Shown: one piece after another, positions 3,971-21,017 of the stretch
Layout: every line of letters begins with the position of its first letter
How positions within the stretch are numbered: the first letter of the stretch is position 1
DNA from: a virus
Strand: one strand, 5' to 3'
IMG/VR virus record: IMGVR_UViG_3300035180_000594
Coordinates: 1-25,297 of that record
DNA: 25,297 bases
Translations under genes and position numbers: made by a program
Notes under the pieces: generated by a model
Told to the model about the DNA's origin: nothing
The model's database searches: none
The model's input: the letters and a program-made list of their open reading frames with translations, nothing else

Positions 3971-4432
3971 CTAGGCCCCCATAATCACGGACTTGTCCGT
4001 CGCCACGATCCAGGCCCGCTGGCTCTCCCAAGTGGTGTCGGGGGTCAGCCCGGCCTTGGCGAGATTGGCGCGATAGAGCGCCGCGTAGTTCTCGGCGGGC
4101 ACGATGAGGGCCTGGAGCCCCGTGGCAGCGATCCCCGCCGTCGTCCATGCGGCGATGGCGTCGGCCTCGGCACAGGTCGGGTTGGCCTTGATGTAATCCA
4201 CACTCGCAGACTTCGCGGCGAACCGCTCCTGCCGCAGAAGCTGGTCCACACTCGAGAACTCTCCGATGGAGTCAAGCCCCTGGAGGGACGCCACAACGGG
4301 CACCTTCTCCGCATAATTGGCCGCTTGGAGCTTGGCGATGGAAGCGGCGCACTGGTCAACCAAAGACTTGGCCTGGGTGAGTGCAGCCTCCTTTCCGTTG
4401 AGAAGGGCGAGGGTTTGAAGGGCGTCGGCCAT
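3971..4432 (-). CDS. Alanine-rich helical protein next to the tail fibre, unknown function
   Basis: The 153 residues are largely alpha-helical and Ala-rich: residues 1-40 look like a coiled coil (LNGKEAALTQAKSLVDQCAA), the middle contains FSSVDQLLRQERFAAKSA, and the end has TTWESQRAWIVATDKSVI. No transmembrane segment or enzymatic motif is visible. A clean AGGAG precedes the ATG. It lies between the fibre gene and the lysis enzymes, a place where phages carry fibre chaperones or small tail-tip parts. I do not recognise a family; a fibre-associated role is a guess from position only. Confidence 0.8.
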   Translation of the reverse strand: MADALQTLALLNGKEAALTQAKSLVDQCAASIAKLQAANYAEKVPVVASLQGLDSIGEFSSVDQLLRQERFAAKSASVDYIKANPTCAEADAIAAWTTAGIAATGLQALIVPAENYAALYRANLAKAGLTPDTTWESQRAWIVATDKSVIMGA

Positions 4433-4441
4433 GGGTGGCTC

Positions 4442-4840
4442 CTAAGATAGGATTTTGACGTTGTGAGACACCACGCCCAGCGTGGTGTAAGTGTGGACGC
4501 GGTTGATGGTGATCTTTACGACAGGCCCGTAAACGTCGGCCCGTGCGGACTCTACAACTAGGCCGTTCGTTAGAACATCGCCGTGGACCAAGTGCTGTAG
4601 TTCTTGCCAGCGACCATCGCTGAGCAGGAATTGGTGATTAGCGGCGAACCTACCCGAGCGCCCATTGGAGAGCACAAGCAGCCATCGGTGGTTTGTGCTC
4701 ATGGATGTGTGTGTGACTTCCTCCACACATTCGCATCCAGCGGCTTCGTCCCAGGCCACAACACGGTCGCCAATGCGGATAGCACCCGCAGGCTTCTCGG
4801 TGCCATCGGCCATGAGCAAAGGCACGTCAGGCGCAGGGCA
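4442..4840 (-). other. Hint (hedgehog/intein) domain at the fibre C-terminus
   Basis: The last 132 residues form a full-length Hint module. Block A is CPAPDVPLLMADGTEKPAGA with the nucleophile Cys1002, followed by IRIGDRVVAWD. Block B is GRFAANHQFLLSDG with His1070; the usual Thr three residues before this His is Ala here. Then comes LVHGDVLTNG, and the end is VVKITINRVHTYTTLGVVSHN with His1127-Asn1128. After Asn there are only five residues (VKILS) and no Cys, Ser or Thr at the +1 position. Protein splicing is therefore not expected, but N-S acyl shift and cleavage before Cys1002 are possible. It resembles bacterial intein-like and hedgehog-type modules more than a splicing intein. Confidence 0.85.
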
Positions 4841-7800
4841 GTTACCGCCGCCGCCCGTTCCGCCGCCCGTTCCGCCGCCCGCGGCACCCGTGATACCTGA
4901 CGGCCAAGACGTGCCGTTGTCCGTGAGCGCGGTGCCAGCAGTCCAACCGGACGCCGAGTAGAAGCAGTGGGTGTCGCTCGATCCCGACGCGCCGTAGAGC
5001 GTGACCTTGCACGCCGGGACTCCTGACAGAAGCGCCTCAGCGATAACCTGTGTGGCATAGGACGCGTTCCCAGCATCCGAATCACTCGTCGGGTTGTAGT
5101 AAATGCGGTCCCCAAGCGGGCAGTAGTAGACGCCATGTGTGGTCAGCGCGGCCGTTGTGCCCGCGGCAGACTGGCTGAACAACTCGATCTTGGCATAGGA
5201 GAGTCCATCCAGATTGTCCGTGTATGAACTCGGCGCCAGCTTGAGATCCAGGCGACCTGTGTAGGGGCTAGCCGTCTGGTAGAGCGTTGGAGTCACTGTG
5301 AGCCGCGAGATGTTGGGGCGTCCGCCATTGGTGCCAGGGTCGTTACTGCCCCGATAGAAGCACCGGAAGGACGTGCCGGTCTGCCCATTGTCGCCGATGG
5401 CGCTCATGGCACGGGCAGTGAGTCCAGACAACTGGTAGCCCATGAGGTTGACACCATAACCAAGCTCTACTTGCGCGGTGAATGTTGCGCCGCCAAGCAA
5501 GGTCGAAGTAAACCCTCCTGCGCTGATCCTGAATCCGATGGGTGGCGTGGTGGCCGTGCCCGGCGTGTATCCGCTCGCGTCCGAGCCGCTCCGCATGTCC
5601 AGCGAGTAGAGCAGCGGCACCCGCGCCACCAGGGCCTGGAGCGTGCCGTCCACGATCATTGAGGCGTCGGCCATGCGGCGAGCATAGAGGTTGTCAAGGC
5701 GGCACCCAGGAGCGGACGAGTCACAATAGAACTCAATAAACGCTGCCTGGGGGGGAATCGTTACCGTAAATGAAACTTTCTGGTAGGTTGTATTTGTGAA
5801 TGAAACACCAACCCAGTTCGCATAGCTCCAGTCTGCATTGGATATTCTGGAATAAAAAGCCCCGGTTCCAGAATCTACGCAAGCCATAGCCTCTGCGTAG
5901 AATTGATCTCCAGGATTGCAGGGGATACGGGCAGTATAGAACCCTGGTCCGCGCCGGTAGGTGCCGGAGTAAGGCCGATCCGAAGAGAGCCCAGCAGCCT
6001 CATAACTCCCTGCCGGAGGGTTAGGCATCTCGCTATTGCCGTTCGGGATCAGGTTGTCGAAGTTTGCGACCGACAACTGGTTCGCAAACAACTGCCCGAA
6101 TAGCCCCGTTGTCGCCACCAGCACATCGGTCCACGCCGTACCTGCCGCGTTGACCTGCACCGTGCGGGCGTCCGTGGTGATCGCATAGTAACCAGCGGGA
6201 TAGCTCGCGTTCGGGAGCGCGGGCTTCGACGCGTAGGCCCACGCGACTTGATGCGGCTGTGAAGCGAGTTGAGCGGCGTTTGCCTTGTTCGTGGCATCCG
6301 TCGCCGCCGTGCTGATAGCATTCTGCGCCGTGCCCACCGCGATGGCATTCCGCAGATCGGCGGCTGCATTCTTCACGGCGGTCCACTTCGGGTTCCAGAG
6401 GGCCACGCGATTACCGGTGCCGAGCGATGTGGTTCCGCCTAGGGAGTTCCAGGCCGTGGGGCTGGTGAGCGTGGACAGGTAGGACATCAGCGCGGAATAG
6501 GCCGTGTCATAGGTGGAGTGGTTCGCGCCGTAGGCGTTGGCCTTCGCCACGAGGTCCGCGTTCTCACCCGTGACCGCGTTGTAGTCGATGATGATCTGCG
6601 GCTTCTCACCCGTGGTCAGGGTGTCGGGATCGTTGATCGTGTTGACGCCGGACTGGGCATTGGTTGCCAATCCACGAAGCACCGCTCCCTGCGCTGGCAT
6701 GGGACTGAGTGTGGCGATCCCATTGGTGACGGTGTAATCGGTGACAGTGACTGCGGCTGTGGTGGTGGGAATGCGGGAGGTCGCAAGGGTGCCAGCCTCA
6801 ACCTGAGTCATCCCAGCATAGATATACGACGCACCGTCGCCGGTGTAAGCCTGCACAGATGTTCCGTCGGAGGTTCCGATACCCGCGTTTATTGTGGTGG
6901 AGGACGCCGTCACTGTTTTGGTACAGAGCCACCAGCCACTACCAAGTGAAGTCATGGTTGGACTGCCAGATCCAGAGGCTACGCCATTGATTAAATCGTA
7001 GAACGCACTGGTGGTGTCAGTCGTGCTCCAGACCCATGCCTGAGCCCATGTTCTGGTCCCCGCTTTCGCCAAGAATGAAAGCGTGTATTGTGAGCCACTG
7101 ACGATACCGCCCACAGATTGCCATACCTTGTGTCCCCCACCGCCGTTTGTGCCGGTCCCCTCAACGATTTTGTTTCCGGTGTTACCGCCATCGGGCATCG
7201 TAATCTGGTTTGCGGTCGCGGTGCAGCCGTCTTGGGACCATGTGGCAGTGAAATTATTCGATTGACGGACCATATTCGTCCGCGCAGTCGCGTAGAGCGT
7301 CTGCGTGCCCTGCCAGTCCGTCTTAGTCACGGTAGGGCCAACATAGAGAAACTGACTGGTGGTGCCGTCGCCTACCGCCACGGGAATCAGTGCGGTGTTT
7401 CCAGTGGACTGTGCTGCGTCCACTGCGGCCTTCGTTCCAAGCACAACGGTATCAGGATCTAGTTGGACTGTTCCGTCAAGAGATCGCCAACTTGACTCAT
7501 TGCCGCTGTGATACACAGCCTGCACGGAGGCTTTGATATTGGCAATCGTAGTTGCAGTAGTGATACTTTTCACATAGCGATAATTCGTCAGTGTATTCGC
7601 TACAATCGCTCCCGGATCTATTTCAATAGGGGCAGTGATGTAGGATGAAACATCATTTGGGTCCGTGCCAGTATAGACTACTATCCTGAATATCCTCAGC
7701 GCGGCGGGGTAGGGCTCTGTGTGAGTCCAATTGAAATCCAGCCATTTGGGGCTGAGAAGTGTTGGACTTCCGCCCGCGCCAGGACCACCACTGGGGCCAA

Positions 7801-7843
7801 CACCGCCGCCGGCATCATTATCTGTTGGGTATGAGATAAGCAT
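4442..7843 (-). CDS. Large tail fibre / tail-tip protein with C-terminal Hint autoprocessing domain
   Basis: This is a modular protein of 1133 residues. After a Gly-rich leader (10-28) comes an FN3-like beta domain (about 33-130) like the repeats of lambda gpJ. A jelly-roll, carbohydrate-binding-like module follows at about 187-360, starting ARTNMVRQSNNFTATW. A helical stalk (about 405-530) resembles the DKLTPSEK stalks of J-type proteins. A second jelly-roll module lies at about 597-730 (NLIPNGNSEMPNPP), then a beta-rich region to about 980, a Gly-rich linker and a Hint domain from Cys1002 to the end. It probably binds the host receptor, taking the place of the C-terminal half of lambda gpJ, since the preceding J-type gene is short. 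AGGGG serves as ribosome-binding site. Fibre identity is inference from domains and position; the Hint domain is seen directly. Confidence 0.85.
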   Translation of the reverse strand: MLISYPTDNDAGGGVGPSGGPGAGGSPTLLSPKWLDFNWTHTEPYPAALRIFRIVVYTGTDPNDVSSYITAPIEIDPGAIVANTLTNYRYVKSITTATTIANIKASVQAVYHSGNESSWRSLDGTVQLDPDTVVLGTKAAVDAAQSTGNTALIPVAVGDGTTSQFLYVGPTVTKTDWQGTQTLYATARTNMVRQSNNFTATWSQDGCTATANQITMPDGGNTGNKIVEGTGTNGGGGHKVWQSVGGIVSGSQYTLSFLAKAGTRTWAQAWVWSTTDTTSAFYDLINGVASGSGSPTMTSLGSGWWLCTKTVTASSTTINAGIGTSDGTSVQAYTGDGASYIYAGMTQVEAGTLATSRIPTTTAAVTVTDYTVTNGIATLSPMPAQGAVLRGLATNAQSGVNTINDPDTLTTGEKPQIIIDYNAVTGENADLVAKANAYGANHSTYDTAYSALMSYLSTLTSPTAWNSLGGTTSLGTGNRVALWNPKWTAVKNAAADLRNAIAVGTAQNAISTAATDATNKANAAQLASQPHQVAWAYASKPALPNASYPAGYYAITTDARTVQVNAAGTAWTDVLVATTGLFGQLFANQLSVANFDNLIPNGNSEMPNPPAGSYEAAGLSSDRPYSGTYRRGPGFYTARIPCNPGDQFYAEAMACVDSGTGAFYSRISNADWSYANWVGVSFTNTTYQKVSFTVTIPPQAAFIEFYCDSSAPGCRLDNLYARRMADASMIVDGTLQALVARVPLLYSLDMRSGSDASGYTPGTATTPPIGFRISAGGFTSTLLGGATFTAQVELGYGVNLMGYQLSGLTARAMSAIGDNGQTGTSFRCFYRGSNDPGTNGGRPNISRLTVTPTLYQTASPYTGRLDLKLAPSSYTDNLDGLSYAKIELFSQSAAGTTAALTTHGVYYCPLGDRIYYNPTSDSDAGNASYATQVIAEALLSGVPACKVTLYGASGSSDTHCFYSASGWTAGTALTDNGTSWPSGITGAAGGGTGGGTGGGGNCPAPDVPLLMADGTEKPAGAIRIGDRVVAWDEAAGCECVEEVTHTSMSTNHRWLLVLSNGRSGRFAANHQFLLSDGRWQELQHLVHGDVLTNGLVVESARADVYGPVVKITINRVHTYTTLGVVSHNVKILS
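4848..4881 (-). repeat. 12-base tandem repeat coding the Gly-rich linker before the Hint domain
   Basis: The unit CCGCCGCCCGTT (plus strand) occurs 2.8 times in a row and encodes the GGGT repeats just ahead of Cys1002. Whole-unit gain or loss would change linker length by four residues without shifting frame. Confidence 0.75.
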
Positions 7844-7851
7844 GGACGCCC

Positions 7852-10164
7852 CTAAATCGGCTTGCTAGTTGTGACCGCAAGGGTGAGACTACCCGGCGTC
7901 GTGGCAGGAATGGTTAGAGAAGCCGGTGTTCCATTTGGATCAGCAATGGTCAACGACACCTCAGTGACGAAAGTGTTTGTGATACCAGCGAAGAAAGCCT
8001 GCACACGAACTCTATAGTCACCGGGAAGAACTTCGTCGGCTGATGCGGATGAGCCCGACACCTGCATCTGAACAAATGGCCTGTAGTCGCGAGAGTAGGC
8101 GCACTCATACCCCACCGCCATCGTATTATTCGGCCAAGATACATCCAACTGAATTGCCACACGAGAATTGAGAATCTTAACATACGAACTAGTCGTTACA
8201 GGGAAAGGGGCCGCTGCGGTCCGCTGCGTCAGTCCCCCTGACGCTGAGATACGAAGCCCGCTCTCGTAACTATACTTGGACGGATCATGCAGAAGTGCCG
8301 TGACCTCGTAATCTACCGGGCCTGATTCCTTAATGCTAAGAACTCGATACAGAGCCATATTCGTGGATAGTTGCAGAATCCACATCGTTTCTGGAATATC
8401 AGAAAATGGGGCGGATACAGTCAACGAATTCGTTGCTCCGGTGCCGTTGGTGACGGTTCTTGCTTCTACGGCACCACTCGGCAGCGTGCATTTGAGTGTA
8501 TAGGTTCCAGCTACCAGTGTGATTGTGTCGTCCAAAAGCACGGTTGACGCAGTGGTCCCGGGCAGCACACGTCCGCCCATGCGCGTTTTCCCCGCTCTGA
8601 ACGGATCGACTATCTGTATGATATCCCCAGGTCGGCAGGCCGCGCCCTCCATGCCTGCTTTGAATGTCACCACTTCTGTTTCAAGAAGTTCTGTAGCCAA
8701 GGTCCATAAACCGAGCCTTCTGGCCTGCCCCTGGCTGGTGCAACCAAATGCAGTCACCTGCGTTGGCTGGTAGCCATACCGGGCAATCCCAGCATCATCT
8801 TGGACGTATTCAACAGACTGCTGGTAGCCCATCGCTGGGTTAGTCCACGATACCAGCGCCGCAGTGTGGCGAGCTTTCTTCGCGGTGCCTGAATAAGAGA
8901 ATGCGCCGTCGTGGACATTGGCTGAATTGAAAATCATCACAGGAGACGCGTCTACATCAGCCACAGGGGTGACTAATCCGCCTGCGAAATAAGCCATGCC
9001 CCGAAAAATTGAAGCCATTGTCATTAGAACTTTGAGCGCATCCTCTTGTGCTTGGATAAATAGGTTGCACGAGAATCTTGGCTCCCACCCACCATTTCCA
9101 TCCGGAACAAGCGTTTCGTCACACAACTTTGAAATGTAGTATAGAGCCCACTTATCTAAAGAAGAAGCGTCTAAGTATGAGCCGGCTCCGTAGCGCGTGT
9201 TGGTCGCGATGTCGTAGAAAATCCACGCAGGATTACAGGTCCACGCCTCCGCCTCTTTGAACAGCCCATCCCACACACCCGTATAGATACCAGGAGTCCA
9301 GATACCTGTTGACTCATCAATGAACGCGGGGGTGTAGTTAGAAGGAATCTTCACCAATCGGAGATAGTATTCTGCTGAAAGCCGCGGAACGCTGCGGAAT
9401 TGCTTCGCATCTACTTTCAGTGCCATCATTGCGGTGTTGGGATACCGAAGCAAGGCATCTGTGATCTCTGTCAGTGACTTCCAATTAGTCAGATTCTGGG
9501 TGTAAGAATCAGGTGGATCTGCCGTGACACGAACTACTCTGATCTGCCACGCCCCCGTTCCGACATTGGGCAGGTTGATTCTGTACGACTTGACATACTC
9601 GTCACCAAACTTATCCCGAACGATGCCGTCCTTATCAAGCGGAACCTTAGTGAAGACACTGCCATTGTAGCCAGATCTGTATATCCAGATTTCAATCTGG
9701 CAGTATGAGCCAGTCTCGTTCCCAGTTGTCTTGTCTATTACTTTCAGTGTAGGAATTGAAATTGATACGCGAACAGCAGAAATATTCGGGGTGATCATCG
9801 TTCGCGTCTGTGGTGCAGCATGTGTCACAGCGCAGGGCAGATTCAATTCGGAAGTTCTAACGGCCTCCACGTCCGGGAAGTCTGGAATCATAGCTTGGTC
9901 GTTGTAGCCTGCGGTGAGCGCCAAGGCCACACCCTTGAAATTCATTCCGGAAGGTCCTTGAACGGGACTGTCATCTAAATAAACAGATTTAAGCCCATTG
10001 ACCAAACCTCCGATCGGGCCCTCGCACACTGCGACAAGCATCCTGGCCATCTCAACATTGGCGTCTGTTGCAAGACTTACGCCGCTGCCGACACCTCCAC
10101 CAGTGCCGCCACCGCCGCCGCCGCCGCCGCCGCCATCCACAGACCAAGAAATCATTGCAGACAT
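7852..10164 (-). CDS. J: Tail-tip hub / host-specificity protein J-like (short form)
   Basis: The 770 residues follow the lambda gpJ plan: a Gly-rich start (11-25), then MLVAVCEGPIGGLVNGLKSV (42-61), which matches the ICEGEIEGLVNGLKSIYLDG-type J opening. NPAWIFYDIATNTRYGAG at 311-328 is the hallmark of J family hubs. The C-terminal third is beta-rich and ends in FN3-like strands. The protein forms the central tip spike that contacts the host and closes the tail tube. At 770 residues it lacks the C-terminal receptor-binding half of lambda gpJ (1132 residues); the next gene seems to supply it. AGGAG sits 7 bases before the ATG. It follows I closely, as in lambda. Confidence 0.9.
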   Translation of the reverse strand: MSAMISWSVDGGGGGGGGGGTGGGVGSGVSLATDANVEMARMLVAVCEGPIGGLVNGLKSVYLDDSPVQGPSGMNFKGVALALTAGYNDQAMIPDFPDVEAVRTSELNLPCAVTHAAPQTRTMITPNISAVRVSISIPTLKVIDKTTGNETGSYCQIEIWIYRSGYNGSVFTKVPLDKDGIVRDKFGDEYVKSYRINLPNVGTGAWQIRVVRVTADPPDSYTQNLTNWKSLTEITDALLRYPNTAMMALKVDAKQFRSVPRLSAEYYLRLVKIPSNYTPAFIDESTGIWTPGIYTGVWDGLFKEAEAWTCNPAWIFYDIATNTRYGAGSYLDASSLDKWALYYISKLCDETLVPDGNGGWEPRFSCNLFIQAQEDALKVLMTMASIFRGMAYFAGGLVTPVADVDASPVMIFNSANVHDGAFSYSGTAKKARHTAALVSWTNPAMGYQQSVEYVQDDAGIARYGYQPTQVTAFGCTSQGQARRLGLWTLATELLETEVVTFKAGMEGAACRPGDIIQIVDPFRAGKTRMGGRVLPGTTASTVLLDDTITLVAGTYTLKCTLPSGAVEARTVTNGTGATNSLTVSAPFSDIPETMWILQLSTNMALYRVLSIKESGPVDYEVTALLHDPSKYSYESGLRISASGGLTQRTAAAPFPVTTSSYVKILNSRVAIQLDVSWPNNTMAVGYECAYSRDYRPFVQMQVSGSSASADEVLPGDYRVRVQAFFAGITNTFVTEVSLTIADPNGTPASLTIPATTPGSLTLAVTTSKPI
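10114..10134 (-). repeat. (GGC)7 trinucleotide repeat in the J-like gene
   Basis: Seven identical GGC codons lie within a run of ten glycines at residues 11-20 of the J-like protein. Such a run could slip during replication in whole codons, altering only the length of a flexible leader. Confidence 0.8.
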
Positions 10165-10173
10165 CTGATGCTC

Positions 10174-10881
10174 CTAGACGATGGCGGCGGGTGCGAGAGC
10201 CCACATCCAAGGCGCAGTTCTTCCATCGCCATTACGAGTGCCAATTTCATCAGCTGCCAGCCCACCCAAGCCATTCGGAGTCCACGACTCGCTGCAGATA
10301 CCTAGTGATACGAGGGCTCCGCCAACACGAAGTTTTCCGTAGCCCAGCCCGATAGGATTTCCCTGCCCGATTGTTAGATGTGGGGATGAAAAGGCAAAGG
10401 TCGGCTTATCCGCTGGGCCTTTGTCGTTGCTTCCTGCGTCAACGCTTTGGTTTCCCGCTAAGATCTGGGCCACACCCCCGAGAGCCATCGCCATTCCCAT
10501 ATTGATAGCCATAGCAGAAAGCCAGTTGTTCGCCGCCGCCTGATACCAGTAAGCTCCTGACCCACCTGTGAAGTAGACAAGAGCTATAAGCGCGACGCCC
10601 ATAAGGATCTGTCCGAAAATATTCTTTGCGCCTACGACACATGGAACAATCCGGATAGTCTCTCCACCGTGGGGCAGGAAAAGTTGCTCTTCTCCAAGAG
10701 ATTCTGCCCCGATGCGAATTCTGTATCCGTATTCATAATTGATCATTGCTTCTTTAAAGCCTTCAAGCTGGCAACTTAGAGCTCTAATTGCTTCCTGTGG
10801 GGAGCTCACAGCCAAGCGAAAACTTGCGCCGAACTTTGCGCGAAGGTGGCCATACAGTCTGATCTCAGTGGTTTCAGTCAT
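10174..10881 (-). CDS. I: Tail assembly protein I-like
   Basis: I start this 235-residue protein at ATG 10881, where it overlaps the K-like stop codon by 8 bases. A longer in-frame extension to 11082 exists but lies inside the K gene and has no family resemblance. The N-terminus MTETTEIRLYGHLRAKFGASFRLAV and the following SPQEAIRALSCQLEGFK match the lambda gpI family, whose N-terminus has a beta-grasp fold. A Gly/Ala-rich hydrophobic middle follows (about 88-145). In lambda, gpI is needed for tail-tip assembly but is not found in the finished virion. Gene order L-K-I-J supports the call. Confidence 0.88.
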   Translation of the reverse strand: MTETTEIRLYGHLRAKFGASFRLAVSSPQEAIRALSCQLEGFKEAMINYEYGYRIRIGAESLGEEQLFLPHGGETIRIVPCVVGAKNIFGQILMGVALIALVYFTGGSGAYWYQAAANNWLSAMAINMGMAMALGGVAQILAGNQSVDAGSNDKGPADKPTFAFSSPHLTIGQGNPIGLGYGKLRVGGALVSLGICSESWTPNGLGGLAADEIGTRNGDGRTAPWMWALAPAAIV

Positions 10882-11566
10882 GACGCACCGCCATCCTGGT
10901 CCTTCCCTGCCAGTGTCCATCATACTCGTCAATGCGAGAAAGACGGTTTGGCAGGTGATGAAGTATCCTACCATGCCCAACATAGATAGCGCAATGGCTA
11001 ATAGTTGGAGCCGCAACTTCCATGAGAAGCCCATCGCCCTCCCGCAGATCTTTGATGGGGATTTCGTAATAACCCGCCGCAAGAAGATTATCTAGATGAG
11101 GAGTTTCGCCGCGTTCCCAGAACTTATCACTGCGCAGAAAGTCTGGCAGTTCATGACCACTGGAAAGTGCATACCACTCTCGCGCAATTGACCAACAATC
11201 GTCCACGCCAAACACGAATTGCCGCCCCTCAATAGGCCGCCCAACTGGATCTATGCGGCTCCACGATTGGTTTGCATCAGTGACTACCCACCACGGCACA
11301 CCTGTCGCATTGCAACTTTTCACATCAGTGACGCCGGGGCTGACGTCACCACCGACATGGCTATGGATATACCCAATCAGTCTACCATCGTCCTGCGCGG
11401 CCACCAAACTATCAGGGCACAGATCAAGTTCATCTTCTACAGTTGAAAGATTCTTACATCTACGATACTCTGCGACGCCTTTGATATCAATGACGACGCC
11501 GACAGATTCCATGGGGGACATCTCCAGGGCGTGGATGTGAGCTTTTGATAGAAGTTCTGGTGTCAT
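10874..11566 (-). CDS. K: Tail-tip protein K-like: JAMM peptidase plus NlpC/P60 domains
   Basis: The chosen ATG (11566) overlaps the L-like stop as ATGA and gives MTPELLSKAHIHALEMSP, the usual start of this family; an upstream in-frame ATG at 11635 would overlap L by 73 bases. The 230-residue protein has an N-terminal JAMM/MPN metalloprotease domain with E20, H68-S-H70, S76 and D81 (IHSHVGGDVSPGVTD). The C-terminal NlpC/P60 domain has Cys124 (GVDDCWSIAREWY) and His191 (ISHCAIYVGHG). In lambda gpK the same pair acts in tail-tip maturation and possibly peptidoglycan passage. All catalytic residues appear intact. Confidence 0.92.
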   Translation of the reverse strand: MTPELLSKAHIHALEMSPMESVGVVIDIKGVAEYRRCKNLSTVEDELDLCPDSLVAAQDDGRLIGYIHSHVGGDVSPGVTDVKSCNATGVPWWVVTDANQSWSRIDPVGRPIEGRQFVFGVDDCWSIAREWYALSSGHELPDFLRSDKFWERGETPHLDNLLAAGYYEIPIKDLREGDGLLMEVAAPTISHCAIYVGHGRILHHLPNRLSRIDEYDGHWQGRTRMAVRHD

Positions 11567-19653: not shown

Positions 19654-20811
19654 TTAACCGAACAGGCGCGCGCCGAGCTCTTCACGCACAATGTCCACAC
19701 CCCAGAGCAGGTCGAAGGCCCACCGAACGCGGTGGAACTCTTCCCGAACCTGGAGACGCAGGGTCAGACCACTGACAGGATCAGCAACCTGCATAGAGTT
19801 GGGATTGGGCTCCGCTCCGGCGACGTGCTCCAGGGTGCGAGAAGCGAACCCAAAACAGTCAGCATGGAACGCGAGGTTCACTCGGTGGCTGGCCTTCACG
19901 GTGATGGCTTCGGAGCCGCTCAGGGCCATAGCGAGCGGCTGATTGATCGTGAGGCTGACATCAGTAGCAGCGGCGGCCTGAGTCGCAGCAGCGGCCAAAG
20001 AATAGGTCCTCGGATGGCCAGCGATGGCGATGACATCACCCGCAACCAAGGCGCAAGCGCCGGTGGAGGCTGCGGTCGTTGCCAGGAAGGTCTTGGTCCC
20101 AGCCGCCACAGGAGTGGAAGCCTTGGCAGCGAGCCCAGTGGTGATGGTTCCAGCGGTGTGCTGAGGAACCTGCTGGTCCTCAAACCAGTTGAAGCCATAC
20201 TTGCGGCCAATTTCGCCTTCGCGCATGACATTGGGGTCGCTACTGTTGAGCGCATAGGCGAAGGCACCGAGCTTGAGGGCATTGCCCATGGCCACGGTGT
20301 CAAGAACGAGCCGGCGGTCGCCGATGGGGGCCTTCCAGGTCGTCAGCAGTTCCTTCAGATCCACTGCGTTATCAACAGCGGTCGCGAAGGGAGCAGTGCC
20401 AGGGGTGCCGGTGCTGAGGCCGAGTTTCTTATACTTGCTGAAGATCGTGCTGTTCACATACTCAGCAAGTGCCACGACAGCGGCATTGGCCTGACGAGCG
20501 GGGTAGCCCGCAGCGGCCTGAGCCATTTCCTGCTCGGTCAGCGTGAAAGGAGCCTCACGCCAGTAGTCGAGGGAAATCTGCGCGACGGTAGGAGTGGAAT
20601 TCCCGCTATCCGGAGCGTAGGGGCCAGGAACGACGTCGTTGGTCGCATTGGCGGAAGGGATGGGAATGGTCACCACCTGACCCTTTTCCATCGCGTTGGT
20701 GGAGAAGCTGTTGTTCACCATGCTGGGCATGACGCAGTTGCCCCGGAGAACATTCAGCCCCTGTGCAAAGATCACAGGGATGATTGCGGAAATATTGTTG
20801 GACAGGGCCAT
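19654..20811 (-). CDS. Major capsid protein (P22 coat-like, HK97 fold)
   Basis: The 385-residue protein begins MALSNNISAIIPVIFAQGLN and has KGQVVTIPIPSANATNDVVP, then ISLDYWREAPFTLTEQEM and YVNSTIFSKYKKLGL. This resembles P22 gp5-type coat proteins: a helical start, a strand with 'ITIP', the substrate-like 'L.....W' loop and the 'A.YVn..I..' spine helix. The Ala/Thr-rich segment at about 225-290 (TITTGLAAKASTPVAAGTKT and AATQAAAATDVSLTI) is a probable inserted domain like the P22 insertion domain. It forms the capsid shell on the scaffold, whose gene lies immediately upstream. A terminator, promoter and downstream terminator frame it (entries below and above). Identity is firm from position, length and pattern. 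Confidence 0.87.
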   Translation of the reverse strand: MALSNNISAIIPVIFAQGLNVLRGNCVMPSMVNNSFSTNAMEKGQVVTIPIPSANATNDVVPGPYAPDSGNSTPTVAQISLDYWREAPFTLTEQEMAQAAAGYPARQANAAVVALAEYVNSTIFSKYKKLGLSTGTPGTAPFATAVDNAVDLKELLTTWKAPIGDRRLVLDTVAMGNALKLGAFAYALNSSDPNVMREGEIGRKYGFNWFEDQQVPQHTAGTITTGLAAKASTPVAAGTKTFLATTAASTGACALVAGDVIAIAGHPRTYSLAAAATQAAAATDVSLTINQPLAMALSGSEAITVKASHRVNLAFHADCFGFASRTLEHVAGAEPNPNSMQVADPVSGLTLRLQVREEFHRVRWAFDLLWGVDIVREELGARLFG

Positions 20812-20857
20812 GCCTGTGCCTCCTATGAAGTGAAGATGGTTTTATGCTTGATCCCGT

Positions 20858-20874
20858 GTATGGCTCCACCATAC
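20858..20874 (-). promoter_or_regulatory. 5'-leader hairpin of the coat mRNA
   Basis: GTATGG and CCATAC form a perfect 6-base-pair stem with a 5-base loop about 50 bases upstream of the coat ATG, within the leader of the predicted coat transcript. A hairpin near the 5' end could slow mRNA decay; no T tract follows it, so it is not a terminator. Confidence 0.5.
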
Positions 20875-20917
20875 TGTTTCGGGCGAGCAACCACCGGAAG
20901 CTCCGCAACTGAAATGA

Positions 20918-20946
20918 AGTATAAGCCCGTTCCTGGCCCCGCGCAA
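20918..20946 (-). promoter_or_regulatory. Promoter candidate for the coat protein gene
   Basis: On the minus strand TTGCGC (20941-20946) and TATACT (20918-20923) are spaced 17 bases apart. The -10 matches TATAAT in 5 of 6 positions; the -35 matches in 3 of 6 with the important TTG. It lies between the scaffold terminator and the coat gene, giving a leader of about 100 bases. Confidence 0.55.
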
Positions 20947-20956
20947 GTATTTGTGC

Positions 20957-20987
20957 AAAATAAAAGAGCCTCCGAAGAGGCCCTTTT
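20957..20987 (-). terminator. Strong rho-independent terminator between scaffold and coat genes
   Basis: An 11-base-pair stem (one G-U pair) closed by a UUCG tetraloop is followed by TTTTATTTT in the reading direction. It starts about 30 bases after the scaffold stop. The A tract on the other side is also long, so it may work in both directions. Confidence 0.85.
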
Positions 20988-21017
20988 CCACTCGAATCCT
21001 TTTTAGGGGATACGACT

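Follow-up and report, generated by a model that had tools for sequence, protein, structure and literature searches.

Which function could an intein-like domain have at the very end of a phage tail fibre? This question is raised by the window, i.e. the whole stretch of 25,297 nucleotides from a metagenomic virus record that was analysed here: its tail fibre ends in 132 residues that were read, in an initial annotation of the DNA, as a complete Hint domain. The fibre is encoded in a lambda-like tail module which, from right to left, consists of the tape measure protein, L, a K-type protein with NlpC/P60 and JAB domains, gpI, the J-type hub and the Hint fibre (Table 1). The fibre as a whole matches phrog_5939 (tail protein) with an E value of 7.6e-19; the setting on a tail-tip protein, as in the initial annotation, is supported. 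The function of lambda J is split here (7843-7852) between a hub of 770 residues and a separate fibre of 1133 residues; in relatives, fibre open reading frames reach 1866 residues. The gene for a protein of 153 residues is also found 3' of the Hint fibre in close, Holophagaceae-type relatives. The first 85 residues of this protein are kept in most relatives and its full length in about half of them, and it is a possible candidate for an assembly partner of the Hint fibre.

Table 1 Features of the fibre gene, its Hint domain and the neighbouring tail genes in the window
Feature	Position	Strand	Basis or conservation
153-residue protein, starts 9 nt past the fibre stop	3971..4432	-	no family match
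Tail fibre gene, 1133 residues, directly after the J-type hub gene	4442..7843	-	ORF call
Phage spike/fibre domain, residues 185-367 of the fibre	within 4442..7843	-	NF048003, E 1.5e-32
Predicted C-terminal Hint domain, residues 1002-1133 (132 codons plus stop)	4442..4840	-	AlphaFold2, Foldseek, profile
Five-residue tail VKILS; +1 Val (no nucleophile), +2 Lys1130	4445..4459	-	Lys+2 in 62/63
Terminal His-Asn, residues 1127-1128	4460..4465	-	Asn 62/63, His 61/63
Block B His, His1070, Hint position 69	4634..4636	-	63/63 in family
Block B position B:7, Ala1067, not Thr	4643..4645	-	Ala 14/63, Thr 41/63, Ser 7/63, Asn 1/63
Cys1 codon, Cys1002, predicted thioester nucleophile	4838..4840	-	63/63 in family
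Gly-rich linker GAAGGGTGGGTGGGGN ahead of Cys1	4841..4888	-	four or more Gly among the 12 residues ahead of Cys1, 61/63
J-type hub/central fibre protein, 770 residues, without Hint	7852..10164	-	phrog_31 1.2e-207; Phage-tail_3; FNIII-A_GpJ
gpI-type tail insertion/assembly protein, without Hint in the window	10174..11082	-	Lambda_tail_I 2e-7; phrog_32

Pfam alone would have missed the domain, since all matches of the single window sequence are below cut-off (PT-HINT 0.0079, Hom_end_hint 0.023, Hint 0.047); the best of them, PT-HINT (PF07591), scores 16.9 bits against a gathering threshold of 27.7. The match to rSAM_Rv_intein (1.5e-5) is likewise under the curated cut-off, and a search of PHROGs with the isolated Hint domain gave no match. 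For remote comparison a profile was built from 18 relatives. It matched the Hint of Streptomyces UmbC (8w20; 3e-9), the BIL domain 2lwy of Clostridium thermocellum (5e-7), BIL2 of Tetrahymena (5e-6) and the hedgehog Hint 1at0 (1e-4). AlphaFold2, run with the alignment of the same 18 relatives, gave a model of the Hint with a mean pLDDT of 93 and a pTM of 0.85, and the best PDB matches of this model in Foldseek were BIL2 (6y75), NpuDnaB (4o1r), SspDnaB (1mi8) and 2lwy, with TM scores around 0.8 and E values from 1e-8 to 1e-7. Structure prediction and profile search, both proposed in the initial annotation, thus returned the Hint fold and not another one. On the strength of these models it is nearly certain that residues 1002-1133 adopt a Hint fold, and we regard this point as settled. 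For the fibre end before the Gly-rich linker the AlphaFold pLDDT was only 51, too poor for use.

The translated reading frame has the motifs as they had been described: Cys1002 stands within CPAPDVPLLMADG, and the terminal His-Asn is followed by VKILS alone. Block B of the window fibre reads AANH, with the Ala three residues ahead of His1070. We considered a programmed frameshift or a longer C-extein past the stop and rejected both. The stop is genuine, because the gene that follows has its ribosome site (TAGGAGCCACCCATG) overlapping it, the fibres of relatives stop at the same point and the domain is not continued in any other frame.

Such a terminal Hint is not a peculiarity of the window. 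The survey for the same tail that had been suggested was done by scanning IMG/VR and, in one further scan, genomes for Hints near the C terminus of tail-type open reading frames, and it yielded 63 distinct C-terminal Hints, in 25 clusters at 70% identity, on tail-tip proteins of phages and prophages, many of them unrelated. With this number of Hints and clusters, and with conserved junction residues, the C-terminal placement is not due to chance. The scan that yielded most of the diverse members was seeded with the N-terminal block only, so that the tail of the domain was not selected for. Cys1, the block B His, Ala18 and Gly24 are present in all 25 cluster representatives, Asn and Lys+2 in 24 each and the penultimate His in 23. 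Even between members with about 31% identity, Cys1, the block B His and Asn show little or no variation. Loss of the His-Asn was seen only once, in L193. In L078 and L216 a Ser replaces the penultimate His (SNIK, SNLK), with Asn and the +2 Lys retained.

The lack of a nucleophile at +1, recognized from the window sequence at the outset, is a stable property of the family: among 61 members the +1 residue is Ile (22), Leu (15), Val (13), Ala (7), Met (2) or Thr (2), and never Cys or Ser. The Ala in place of Thr before the block B His, also noticed in the initial annotation, is real, and it is confined to the window's own clade. Two further features had not been described there. One is the Lys at +2, which is conserved in proteins with a Lys share of 2.3%; apart from this Lys, the sequence of the tail, which counts 4-14 residues from +1, is free to drift. 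The other is position F:4, which is Asp in typical class 1 inteins. In the tail Hints this Asp is replaced in the whole family, by Lys or Arg in 58/63. Position -1 varies freely (T, Y, G, A, Q, N, P, L, R, S or D). No paper on Hint or intein-like domains of phage tail fibres was found in the open-access literature. Some phage proteins carry a "Hint" label in public databases and the domain as such is therefore not unseen; what appears undescribed is the conserved terminal Hint family with its Lys+2 signature.

With class 1 inteins the tail Hints share the fold and blocks A, B, F and G. Terminase inteins retrieved by the same scans serve as a natural control: 30 of 30 examined have Thr at +1 and a full C-extein, and the examples displayed read VFD.xV, with Asp at F:4. 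The tail Hints mostly lack these features (only 2/61 have Thr at +1), and since the terminase inteins of the same scans differ in this way, the signature of Lys or Arg at F:4, an aliphatic +1 residue, Lys+2 and a stop is specific to the tail type. The phages of L009 and L010 bear a true terminase intein (L038 and L040) beside the tail Hint. Beyond the missing +1 nucleophile and C-extein, no conserved insertion site with intein-free alleles was found; the Hint is always terminal, and none of 18 loci has a fibre that is homologous over the last 200 residues of the body and lacks the Hint.

PT-HINT domains resemble the tail Hint in that they lie near the C terminus of long filamentous proteins. 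They directly precede a toxin and are reportedly absent from the phage-tail-like T6SS and PVC systems (PMC3482391). The tail Hint, unlike them, has nothing behind it, let alone a toxin, and its carrier is a phage tail protein. It is scarcely probable at all that the tail Hint is what remains of a mobile intein, or of a polymorphic toxin that lost its C-terminal part: although PT-HINT is the best single Pfam match, if below cut-off, and true terminase inteins came from the same scans, some of them from these same phages, a remnant does not account for one truncated architecture across 25 clusters, no homing endonuclease, Hint-less allele or toxin remnant was seen, and the F:4 and +2 signatures are unlike those of terminase inteins. 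In addition, the Hint is, as judged from its codons, under purifying selection, with a median dN/dS of 0.18 (0.14 in the fibre end next to it).

A-type BILs come closer. They have in common with the tail Hints the fold, Cys1 (Cys or Ser at this position), the block B His, the C-terminal His-Asn, a variable carrier and the lack of Cys, Ser or Thr at +1, where the window has Val and the family I, L, V, A or M in 59/61 (Thr in 2/61). A-type BILs have protein segments on both sides, whereas the tail Hints have no C-flanking domain but 4-14 residues only, with the stop five codons past Asn in the window; they also differ by Lys+2, the basic F:4 and their phage tail-tip carriers. The tail Hint was compared with BILs by motifs and single BIL structures, and since it has no C-terminal flank we call it BIL-like and do not file it as a BIL. 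In kind it is nearest to a flankless A-type BIL and not to hedgehog, given the conserved Asn, Lys+2 and the F:4 features.

The initial annotation had named, beside cleavage before Cys1002, a hedgehog-like transfer of the thioester to a nucleophile. A Hog domain is indeed, like the tail Hint, a C-terminal Hint behind a functional N-terminal protein and is expected to form a thioester at Cys1. It has no need for a terminal His-Asn, however, and the tail Hint retains His-Asn-x-Lys. Cleavage of the hedgehog type only, in which the Cys1 thioester would be attacked by an outside nucleophile and the His-Asn would be a relic, agrees with the profile match to 1at0 and with the absence of a +1 nucleophile, but a relic Asn and Lys+2 would drift instead of being kept in 62/63 each, the BIL and DnaB intein structures fit better, and no sterol-recognition region follows, as the protein ends five residues past the Hint. 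We consider this reading very unlikely, and the hedgehog likeness gives way to that with BILs.

The chemistry to be expected from a Hint is known: with the help of the block B His, Cys1 can form a thioester with the preceding residue, and Asn is able to cyclise (PMC4031507). A-type BILs, with His-Asn and without a +1 nucleophile, splice when the amine that has been set free attacks the thioester at Cys1, with cleavage dominating (PMC4031507). The earlier expectation that the fibre does not splice is reasonable for the main product, but as a rule it is too strong, since A-type BILs without a +1 nucleophile do splice. In the tail Hints, the retained catalytic residues together with the Lys-bearing tail suggest a chemical reaction by which the tail tip would cut or join itself. 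We favour, with evenly balanced confidence, the reading that the last 132 residues of the fibre are an autoprocessing, A-type-BIL-like cap that would be removed or exchanged after folding or assembly. Cys1 would attack the preceding peptide bond, so that the Gly-rich end of the fibre is held as a thioester, and Asn would cyclise and release the short x-Lys tail. The thioester could then be resolved by water, and the Hint would be shed; by the freed amine of the tail, in which case the Hint would be excised and the fibre joined to the short tail again; or by some other amine of the tail tip. The likely net effect would be removal or exchange of the Hint after the tail tip has folded or assembled. 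An A-type-BIL-like reaction is favoured because a hedgehog-like reaction needs neither Asn nor Lys+2, yet both are retained. In outcome, such a cap would recall the Peptidase_S74 chaperone of endosialidase tailspikes, which is also C-terminal on a phage fibre and may remove itself; in fold and chemistry this chaperone is unrelated to the tail Hint, and Pfam gave no match to a Peptidase_S74 domain in the window fibre.

Thioester formation may be slow or lost, since two residues that help in this N-terminal step are altered, Thr B:7 to Ala in the clade of the window and Asp F:4 to Lys or Arg in most of the family. Pro at -1 often blocks the thioester step, and a bulky residue at +1 (I, L or V) slows cyclisation of Asn. 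The main rival is, for these reasons, a catalytically silent Hint, a structural or receptor-facing tip domain in which the conserved residues would keep the fold and the short tail in place. The loss of Asp F:4 throughout the family and of Thr B:7 in the clade of the window speaks for it, as do -1 residues (Pro among them) and +1 residues that are poor for the two reactions. The alleles of the Hint also agree with it. Within the window's group, residues 47-107 of the Hint occur as two strongly diverged alleles, one in L001-type and one in L012-type fibres; the first 46 and the last 22 residues, by contrast, share 86-93% identity across the two alleles, as expected for an exchanged outer face. 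A structural role does not, however, predict the retention of precisely Cys1, the block B His and Asn, and natural loss of the His-Asn is limited to the single case mentioned. We regard a silent Hint as a minor, though serious, possibility. We asked whether the middle of the Hint is under positive selection and set this aside; the two allele types look like an exchange of a diverged segment.

The Hint is also not specific to the fibre tip, but caps gpI-type and other tail proteins as well. The carriers are J-type or central fibre proteins (phrog_31, 5616, 1101) in L149, L162, L019, L144, L188, L195 and L018, gpI-type insertion proteins (phrog_32) in L097, L164 and L175, phrog_376 tail proteins in L129, L192 and L194, and separate post-J fibres in the window, L168 and L097. 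The window's gpI is without a Hint, unlike its counterparts in other prophages. Two C-terminal Hints, on a gpI-type protein and on a post-J fibre, are present in the prophages L097, L164, L166, L168, L169, L174, L175 and L177; in several two-Hint prophages the intervening J has no Hint and is about 40% identical to the J of the window. By cryo-EM, the lambda virion contains gpI, which runs through gpJ at the tip of the tail (PMC11101478, PMC10721106). From this contact in lambda we infer that the Hint carriers would be neighbours at the tail tip of these phages, too.

This arrangement bears on a third reading, in which the Cys1 thioester would be transferred to the +2 Lys of the own or a neighbouring tail, or to an amine of the tail tip or the host, with formation of an isopeptide bond. 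We know of no role of a Lys at +2 in Hint splicing, and yet Lys+2 is the best-conserved feature outside the Hint core (62/63). In tail-type Hints with a longer flank the +2 residue is not Lys (L095, L172, L176 and L191; L165, which has Lys, is the exception), and L164, L168 and L175 bear Hints on proteins that are expected to touch, a gpI-type protein and a fibre. The Lys could equally adjust the charge around the active site or serve to bind a neighbour. That virions possess an isopeptide or transpeptidation system based on Hints, with the +2 Lys as built-in acceptor on fibre and gpI-type proteins, is in our estimate unlikely, and the same holds for covalent joining in general.

Siphophage tail tips are thought to assemble by non-covalent contacts. 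If the favoured reading of an autoprocessing cap is true, autoprocessing on two proteins that in lambda touch each other at the tip would amount to a chemical maturation or a covalent locking of the receptor-binding apparatus. BIL-type domains, whose role is still unsettled, would gain a defined and testable setting.

In L012 and L015 the same Hint cassette stands behind a different fibre end, from which we infer that Hint and linker would be exchanged as a module with its boundary near the Gly-rich linker. Three loci have unusual arrangements. In L095 (4140-5621) a Gly-rich stretch and the motif SDLRLKKNI, which by eye resembles the start of an S74 chaperone, come after the Hint. L176 (2865-5624) has a tandem pair of Hints, each with its His-Asn. 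In the L183 region the last third of the Hint is present a second time, as a degenerate copy with a stop, downstream of the intact fibre (G016:C1:6728-6844).

Among genomes, the closest match is a Holophagaceae MAG (L148; 64% identical), and further carriers are Sphingomonas melonis, S. naasensis and S. beigongshangi. Strong matches (E < 1e-30) were found in 3/299 genomes of the family of S. melonis, and matches with E < 1e-25 in 2/77 genomes of the order of the Holophagaceae, where one further genome has a fragment at 3e-20. The matches of a tblastn search in 50,697 phage records were mostly to terminase inteins or other proteins, with one of the tail type, in the unannotated faecal contig MT835519; accordingly, no isolated phage with the tail Hint module was found in these records. 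Public genome collections do include Sphingomonas strains with the module in a tail gene, among them S. melonis AS2.3 (L149, a Hint with Thr at B:7) and S. beigongshangi REN5. Elsewhere in the window, an open frame of 424 residues (19732-21006, + strand) runs antisense to the major capsid gene and is most likely an artefact of high GC content.
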